NCBI RefSeq assembly: GCF_964204865.1
Contig: NC_135252.1
Span: 6,655,383 to 6,719,382 of the forward strand
Length of the DNA stretch: 64,000 bases
Reading direction: 5' to 3'
Source of the DNA: Styela clava
Lineage: Eukaryota > Chordata > Ascidiacea > Stolidobranchia > Styelidae
A program made the translations under genes and the position numbers. How positions within the stretch are numbered: position 1 is the first letter of the stretch; each line of letters opens with the position of its first letter. The notes beneath the pieces are model-generated. The model saw nothing but the letters and a program-made list of their open reading frames with translations, did no database searches and had not been told where the DNA came from. Positions 45,101 to 48,100 of the stretch are shown one piece after another.

Positions 45101-48100
45101 TACCCTCTTATGTTTGTTGAGTTGGGTGTAGTTGTGTGAAAATATATACAATGGCAAACATTTGAAATTCTTGTTGTTTTCTCCTATCCCAAGCTGGCAT
45201 TTCGATTATCAATCCTATTTACATTGCTACAATGTAATGCTTGAATCATAACAATCTGCTTAATTTCAATTTTATGACATTTTTTTAGAAAGCCATGACG
45301 ACACAAAGATTTTATTCCGGCTTCTATGGCTTCTATGCTAAGTCCTATTAAAAATGTAAATGTGTAAAACAGTACAATATACAGTGCTGTATTATTGGAA
45401 TGGGCGTGGTTTCACATCAAACTGTACACATATGTTTTTAATCATGCTGCAAATTTTGATACATAAGCGCTGGTGATATCATGCTAGTGTCATTTAAACT
45501 AACCTATTTTTAGTGAGAATTAATTTATCTATTTGACTTGGAGAGTGACAAGAAACTTTAAATTAATATTCCACTCAATTTACAGTTTTATCACCAAAGA
45601 ATAATCAACTGAATTTGTAAATACTTCGCTAGGAGTTGGATATGCCATTACTCATTTTGTATTACTAAATTTTTTATATAATTTGTTACCATTGTTTTTT
45701 TTGGATTGAGTTTCAGAACAAAGTGGCAATTTTGTGCAATGGTGAATTATATCTCCCAGAACCACAGATTGTAACTTTCAAAAAAATATACATCTTTTAA
45801 TAAAATACTACAACCTTAGTTGACAAAAGCATGCTTCTTTAATATTTTACTAATTTTGACTGTTCAGAATTTGGTGTTTCTTGGCAATAACATTTACAAT
45901 TTGACAACTATTTTTACAGCAATTTTGTCTATCCTTGCCATCTACCTGGTGATCGGTTACGGCGCTTCCCTGTTGTGCAATGTCATAGGATTTGTTTACC
46001 CTGCCTACATTTCGTAAGTTTAGTTGTCTCATGTGTTAATGGTTCAAGAATGTTCATTCCGACATTCGTTGCACTTGTTTGATGTCATTCGTGTTCTGAG
46101 TAATCAATCTGCATGCTGCACTATGAAATCATTATCTTCTTTGTCTTGTAATTGTTTTGCAATCTATATTATGGTCTGTCATTAATCTTGATAAATATAG
46201 CATGAAATATTTTATGTCACTGTAAGTTCTGTGATCCGTGCTTGTCTGACAGGAGTTAATGTATGTAAAAGTCAAATTTGCTTTATATGAAAGCCTATTA
46301 AATGCCCTCTACATAGAAGGCCACTCAAATGGAATAAATACTTTTATTTTTTCTTGTGACCATATCCATAAGATATCAAATTATTAGTTCATGAAATGTT
46401 CAGTGCCTGACTGTTTTGATGATGTGTGAAACTGGGAATGTAAAGCTCATGGTACATAAACTATATATAATTTTTGTAAAGTAGCTATGAAGGGTCGAAT
46501 TGCAATAAATATAACTTAATATATTTGCTTCATGATCTGTTTATTTGAAAAATTTTGAATGGTTCATTTCAAACATTTCGCAAACTTTCTGGTACTCGTT
46601 ACCGCTTTTGAACAAATAAACATATTGCGTCATACTCAATAGGCAGTTTGCCGGTTGTGTATGTCTCATCGCATGCTTTCATTGTATCGCGTCCAGCATG
46701 TGGCTTATGTTTTGAAGGAAGTCCACTTCAATCAATACATTGTGCTGATTCTGTTACATTATATCTTGCTGTATACAACTATCTCATATGTTCAGGCTGA
46801 ATGAATAAATAGAGCTTTGGTACCAGTGTTAATATTGTTATTTTCCCAATTGCAATGTTCTGTGTTCAAACTATGGGACCAACATAGTAGTACAGAATTA
46901 GAAACATTTCCGCATATATTTACCTCCAGTAAAAGGCAATTTCTGTAAGATTTATTACATTTCATTGTAAAGAGGTACTGGTTTTACCTATTAAGACTAT
47001 CGGTCAACATATTATGACATTCAGGTGTTGGAATCATGCTTTGAAGTCACTGATTATTTTGAATTAATAAATTAGTATTAAAATTATGAAATATAGTATA
47101 CCAAAAGGTCAATTGAGTTTCTTGAACTTCCGTCGTCTGGAACTAGGGTAGTATTCATTTTGAATGTGAATAAATATGGCTTTACCACTAAAGCTGAAAA
47201 GCTCTCATATAGAACCAAATTATTTTTATTTAACTCTTGCATGTGCATGTCACTCTTCACCTTTCGATTACATATTAATAATCATCATTTTGCATGATAA
47301 ATGATCACAGGCCTTCTTGGATTCTTTTTAATGTGGATTGCTTCTGGTTATTTTGCATCACTCATCTGCAATGCCATAGGCTTTGTTTATCCTGCATACA
47401 AAAGGTGAGAAAATCGACAATTTTCTGTTTGTAACCCAACCTTTTTATATGCTTATGCAACATTCGCTTCCATTTTTCGATACTGATCTATTAGCATATA
47501 GGCGTACTGTGTTGCAAATGTCTGATCAATAAGTTTGTCAGCAATACACACTCTGCGTAACATACAAGATTTGTGGTTTGCTTTGATGTGTTATAGACAG
47601 TAATGTTTGCTTTTTTGTGGCCCCTATCCAGAACAGCTAGACATAGGCAAAAACCTATTAATTCATTGATAATGAATGATATTGTGTTGTGTAAAATTTG
47701 TCTGTAATCAAATAGCTGGTTATTTTAAAATTCGGGGCTCCCGAAGTATGCGAACCAAGATGGCGGACATCGGAATGTAATATGTGTACTAGGTTAGGGT
47801 TAGGCCATAATTTTAGGTATAAATACTACAGAAGGCTCTTGGCTAGTCTTCGAACTGATAATAGGACTAAAATGAGGAAAATTGGAAAAAAATTATCGCC
47901 TAACCTGTTACCCATGTTACGTTCCGATGTCCGCCATCTTGATTCGCATACTTCGGGAGCACCTAAAATTCATATATACAACATTTGACATTTCGATATT
48001 GAATGTCCAATAACAATTGCGATAATCTTTCTTATTAAGTCATAACGAATGATTCATCTTCAGTTTTATTAATCCATTTCAAAAGTTTTGTAGATTTTCG

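Follow-up and report, generated by a model that had tools for sequence, protein, structure and literature searches.

Predicted mutually exclusive exons encoding the first membrane segment in a REEP5-type gene of Styela clava

Introduction

Does a REEP5-type gene of the ascidian Styela clava carry two interchangeable versions of the exon that encodes its first transmembrane segment (TM1), and if so, which property of the protein would the exchange alter? Both questions are raised by a first-pass annotation of the 64-kb stretch of genomic DNA analyzed here (the window, in whose coordinates all positions are given), which described two neighboring exons, here called A and B, as phase-locked and mutually exclusive. 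According to one report (PMC11455953), TM1 is part of a REEP5-only N-terminal domain that is lacking in REEP1-4, and residues 2 to 51 of human REEP5 determine its localization to ER tubules. In the same report, REEP5 without the N-terminal domain went to puncta, and fusing the domain to REEP1 brought REEP1 to the ER.

Results and discussion

Gene model and family assignment

The exons of the gene and the candidate regulatory motifs in its introns are given in Table 1. All three spliced proteins that were scanned (1a+A, 1b+B, and 1a+B, that is, every combination except 1b+A) matched PF03134 (TB2/DP1/HVA22), with 110.2, 112.5, and 112.3 bits, respectively, at a cut-off of 27.2 bits. In the 376.6-Mb genome (379 contigs), PF03134 was found in two places: exon 3 of the present gene and a gene on contig C8. 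Two exons of the latter were found, 72 to 73% identical to human REEP1, and it looks like a REEP1-4-type gene distinct from the REEP5-type gene. Exon 1a aligned with the N-terminus of human REEP5 with a score of 51 that none of 2,000 shuffles equaled. Forms that start with 1a have the additional first TM that marks the REEP5/6-type N-terminal domain, as seen when 1a plus A is aligned with the N-terminus of the human protein. On these sequence grounds, the gene is the genome's REEP5/6-type gene.

A spliced query of exons A, 3, 4, and 5 (467 nt) had four matches in the whole 376.6-Mb genome, all of them exons of this gene itself, so that neither a retrocopy nor a second haplotype contig was seen. 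Among solved structures, a phmmer search with the 1a+A form returned four sequences, at E values of 0.044 or worse and with no REEP among them; an Rfam search of the window gave no matches. Upstream of the gene and head to head with it, on the opposite strand, lies a frame for an EF-hand protein (40185-40790, minus strand).

Table 1. Coordinates of exons and of TGCATG motifs in the REEP5-type gene (slashes mark exon borders)
Feature	Position	Strand	Description
Exon 1a, coding part	42137-42296	+	REEP5-type N-terminus, canonical; exit phase 1; donor TTG/GTAGGT
Exon 1b, putative alternative start exon	44007-44112	+	ATG frame, 35 codons plus 1 base; exit phase 1; donor ATG/GTAAGT
Exon A	45920-46013	+	94 nt, phase 1 to 2; encodes TM1, TM2, and the loop; closer to REEP5 than B
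TGCATG (Rbfox motif)	46110-46115	+	Starts at +97 of the intron that follows A
TGCATG cluster, three motifs (47238, 47244, 47291)	47238-47296	+	From -73 to -15 in the intron upstream of B
Exon B	47311-47404	+	94 nt, phase 1 to 2; homologue of A; TM1 replaced, TM2 and YPAY loop retained
Exon 3	48451-48589	+	Common to all forms; REEP core begins; early stop of either wrong join
Exon 4	49182-49350	+	Common to all forms
Exon 5	49915-49979	+	Common to all forms; terminates in TAA

Reading frames of the exon combinations

A base-by-base check bore out the anatomy that had been described for A and B. The two exons are equal in length (94 nt), entry phase (1), and exit phase (2), and both are bounded by GT and AG sites (A, acceptor ...TTTTTACAG/C and donor TTC/GTAAGT; B, acceptor ...GATCACAG/G and donor AAG/GTGAGA). 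Recounted, 17 of the 32 encoded residues are identical, as are 54 of the 94 nucleotides, and either exon completes a serine codon with exon 3 (TC+C from A, AG+C from B). When A and B are joined, CGT TAA is read at offset 4 of exon 3, and when both are skipped, GGT TGA is read at offset 48; the outcome is the same with 1a or 1b. These stops lie 302 nt (A+B) and 258 nt (double skipping) upstream of the last junction. Protein would thus be lost with double inclusion or double skipping, in line with the earlier claim that only one or the other exon yields protein. Each of the four combinations of a start exon (1a or 1b) with a middle exon (A or B) has a frame that runs uninterrupted to the normal stop.

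Ranked by codon score among 489 overlapping 35-codon stretches that lack a stop and lie in the introns of the gene, exon 1b falls in the top 3%. It showed no significant similarity to exon 1a or to the N-terminus of human REEP5, and comparable coincidences of an ATG frame with a donor occur at about seven places in the window, both strands counted, although some of these may be real exons. We lean toward reading 1b as a second start exon, which would add a further N-terminal choice; its exit phase equals that of 1a, so that four N-termini would be possible. The two-variant picture drawn in the first-pass annotation is probably incomplete, given the four forms that the likely start exon 1b would make possible.

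The same exon lends itself to a different account, in which promoter-linked transcripts are interleaved, 1a going with A and 1b with B, and the promoter rather than a splicing regulator sets the exon. The position of 1b between 1a and A, its open phase-1 frame and consensus donor as a first exon, and the fully open frames of both 1a-A and 1b-B all agree with such an arrangement. However, no pairing is visible in the sequence, since each of the four combinations is as open as the others, and a transcript from either promoter contains both A and B, so that a choice between them would still be required. We therefore regard linkage to promoters as possible but doubtful and prefer a choice made between A and B during splicing.

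Homology and probable maintenance of exon B

The similarity between A and B reached a BLOSUM62 score of 93, compared with a maximum of 49 in 5,000 shuffles. In a tblastn search of the window with A, exon A itself had an E value of 7e-18, exon B 7e-9, and the next match 0.075, and the search found no third copy of either exon there. Differences between the exons number 11, 10, and 19 at codon positions 1, 2, and 3, respectively (P = 0.012; one-sided Fisher test), and the NG86 estimates are dN 0.47 and dS 1.32 for the whole exon and dN 0.21 and dS 1.17 for the last 20 codons. When A was mutated at random to the distance of B, the frame stayed open and 17 or more residues stayed identical in a fraction of 0.00025 of 20,000 trials, in a neutral-walk control that is rough because A was used as a stand-in for the ancestor. 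Codon scores ranked against intronic stretches single out neither A (rank of 0.42) nor B (0.46); shared exon 4 does not stand out either (0.39), so that the codon score is weak here. Judging from these comparisons, exon B is not a chance occurrence: it beats every shuffle, its frame is open, and its changes are biased toward third positions.

A fossil exon, that is, a dead duplicate no longer spliced in, might be suspected from the acceptor region of B, in which just 10 of 20 positions are pyrimidines. By the same count, A and exon 3, both taken as the constitutive type, have 12 and 9, respectively, which makes the tract of B ordinary for this gene. Since B also has an open frame, intact GT and AG sites, and third-position bias, and since its TM2 part retains 16 of 20 residues despite synonymous divergence that looks saturated, a dead exon is improbable. 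Less probable still, to the point of being very unlikely, is a role for B as a "poison" alternative in which A+B is the functional product and lowers REEP5 via nonsense-mediated decay, for although the A+B stop does lie 302 nt upstream of the last junction, a poison exon needs conservation of neither frame nor residues, yet B retains 17 of 32 residues and the phases of A.

Mutual exclusivity, as first proposed, is accordingly well supported as a prediction by homology, length, phase, GT/AG sites, third-position divergence, and early stops. We consider it probable that A and B are a tandem mutually exclusive pair in this REEP5-type gene and that they are presumably used as such in RNA. Such a pair would have arisen by duplication of the TM1 exon long ago, with both copies retained as mutually exclusive alternatives. 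A pattern search for relatives gave 32 matches in genome_contigs and 4 in viral_contigs, with no relative among either set.

Differences between A and B

Identity between A and B is confined largely to one part of the exon, with 1 of the first 12 residues shared compared with 16 of the last 20 (P = 1.3e-4). The first part corresponds to TM1 and the second to TM2 and the YPAY loop, which agrees with the earlier placement of the change in the first membrane segment. In TM1, B has four aromatic residues to two in A, one beta-branched residue to five in A, and a mean hydropathy of 1.50 compared with 2.39. Exon A matches human REEP5 at 22 of 31 residues and exon B at 16 of 31. What separates the two versions of TM1 may be no more than relaxed hydrophobic drift, as opposed to a new function.

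In the arrangement that we propose, the REEP5-specific N-terminal domain would be made up of 1a or 1b plus the first part of A or B, and the constant core of the rest of A or B plus exons 3 to 5. Considering that the N-terminal domain governs localization in human REEP5, the exchanged part would be the localization part of the protein and not the common core. By analogy with the human protein, we infer such a localization role for the exchanged part in the present animal. A variable N-terminal domain on a constant core would probably affect location and membrane shape, not bending as such. The first-pass annotation had suggested that the two variants differ in their wedge properties; they might do so, but the work on human REEP5, if it applies here, favors control of localization by the N-terminal domain. 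In human cells, the part exchanged here is what decides whether REEP5 is on ER tubules or in vesicles. A natural pair of variants with unlike TM1 segments but a common TM2 and core would offer a ready way to examine the part that TM1 and the N-terminal helices play in curvature and localization.

Candidate control of exon choice

Transcripts with a wrong join (A+B or double skipping), whose stops precede the last junction by 258 to 302 nt, would be cleared by nonsense-mediated decay. The frame clash removes wrong transcripts but selects no exon, so that a regulator would still be required, and we propose that A or B is set by cell type.

Three mechanical routes to exclusivity were considered and rejected. 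Steric exclusion was set aside because the A-B intron, at 1,297 nt, is too long for crowding, and a U2/U12 clash because the donors GTAAGT (A) and GTGAGA (B) are ordinary, with U12 judged by eye from the donors. Competing RNA structures, sought as inverted repeats between 45500 and 48450, were represented by four pairs, none convincing; the one spanning A (arms at 45835-45856 and 47069-47090) is 22 nt long and 73% complementary, too weak to build on. The strongest of the four lies after B, with 78-nt arms at 47721-47798 and 47899-47976 that are 85% complementary and 100 nt apart. Parts of this repeat-like palindrome match 31509-31578 at about 73%, and a similar stretch was noticed by eye near 51270-51480; the repeat looks like a member of a small mobile-element family.

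Rbfox sites downstream of an exon activate it. The motif of Rbfox proteins, TGCATG (UGCAUG in RNA), is reported to act from the upstream intron of exon 5B of egl-15 in Caenorhabditis elegans, where it mediates repression of that exon by RBFOX (PMC3585155). In the present gene, three UGCAUG motifs stand before B and one after A, at repressing and activating positions in the flanking introns, with modest statistical support. The cluster before B is the sole plus-strand stretch of the window with at least three TGCATG in 200 nt, and when the 200 nt preceding B were shuffled 20,000 times by dinucleotides, three were reached only once. Among hexamers upstream of B, TGCATG ranks first (Poisson P = 5.9e-5), a value that fails correction for 4,096 hexamers; the cluster was spotted by eye prior to testing, and with the tandem pair counted as one event and 40 motif-flank choices allowed, the probability is about 0.02. 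A search of the genome for the Fox-1_C family gave no match, and the control for that search was void.

The layout of the motifs is that expected if Rbfox favors A, which is suggestive only. Rbfox would be the likeliest regulator, with A activated from downstream sites and B repressed from upstream sites, and we put this step forward as a plausible but tentative candidate. A wider scheme, in which both 1a/1b and A/B are swapped by cell type under Rbfox and direct the constant core either to ER tubules or elsewhere, to a different ER domain or type of vesicle, seems to us rather unlikely as a whole. If it were true, splicing would do here the job of the separate vertebrate REEP subfamilies.

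Comparison with known systems

Human tandem clusters of mutually exclusive exons (MXEs) likewise consist of neighboring homologous exons that match in length and phase and encode the same protein region. A frame clash upon double inclusion, as predicted for A and B, is reported to be common among them, and in one study 377 of 629 human MXE clusters (60%) contained exons of a length not divisible by three (PMC5740500). The phase-locking noted in the first-pass annotation is on that count not a special trait. What sets the present pair apart from these clusters is that it sits in a REEP5-type gene.

With regard to regulation, the closest likeness is to egl-15 exons 5A and 5B, a mutually exclusive pair of which one exon is reported to be RBFOX-repressed from the upstream intron (PMC3585155), as predicted here for B. 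However, egl-15 encodes an FGF receptor and not an ER-shaping protein, and there RBFOX represses the upstream exon of the pair, whereas here it would repress the downstream one, B. Vertebrate REEP5 and REEP6 belong to the same family and have the same type of exon A sequence. A retina splice variant of REEP6 is reported to gain a 27-residue amphipathic helix (PMC9437294), but through an added C-terminal exon and not a swap of TM1 as between A and B. For FAM134B1 and FAM134B2, also ER-shaping proteins, an isoform with a partial reticulon domain is reported to alter the form of the ER in muscle differentiation (PMC11832904); that is another family, in which part of a domain is lost, in contrast to the exchange of homologous exons proposed here.

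The word REEP is absent from the main texts of three reviews and surveys of mutually exclusive exons (PMC9741552, PMC5740500, and PMC9013439). Among titles and the starts of abstracts, a literature search for REEP5 and Ciona found nothing, and one for REEP5 and "mutually exclusive" found nothing evidently on such REEP5 exons, which is no proof of absence. The kind of arrangement, tandem mutually exclusive exons, is thus known, and a REEP5-type gene is apparently new for it, on a weak literature basis. If the pair is in use, it would diversify an ER-shaping protein by splicing in place of gene duplication.

Other features of the window

An intronless open frame of 531 residues on the plus strand (28286-29881) matches the M17 cytosol aminopeptidase family and is far longer than the other listed frames of at least 110 amino acids. 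On the minus strand, 36817-37341 matches PF09778 (Guanylate_cyc_2), and a plus-strand frame at 59326-60015 has a RING finger at its C-terminus.
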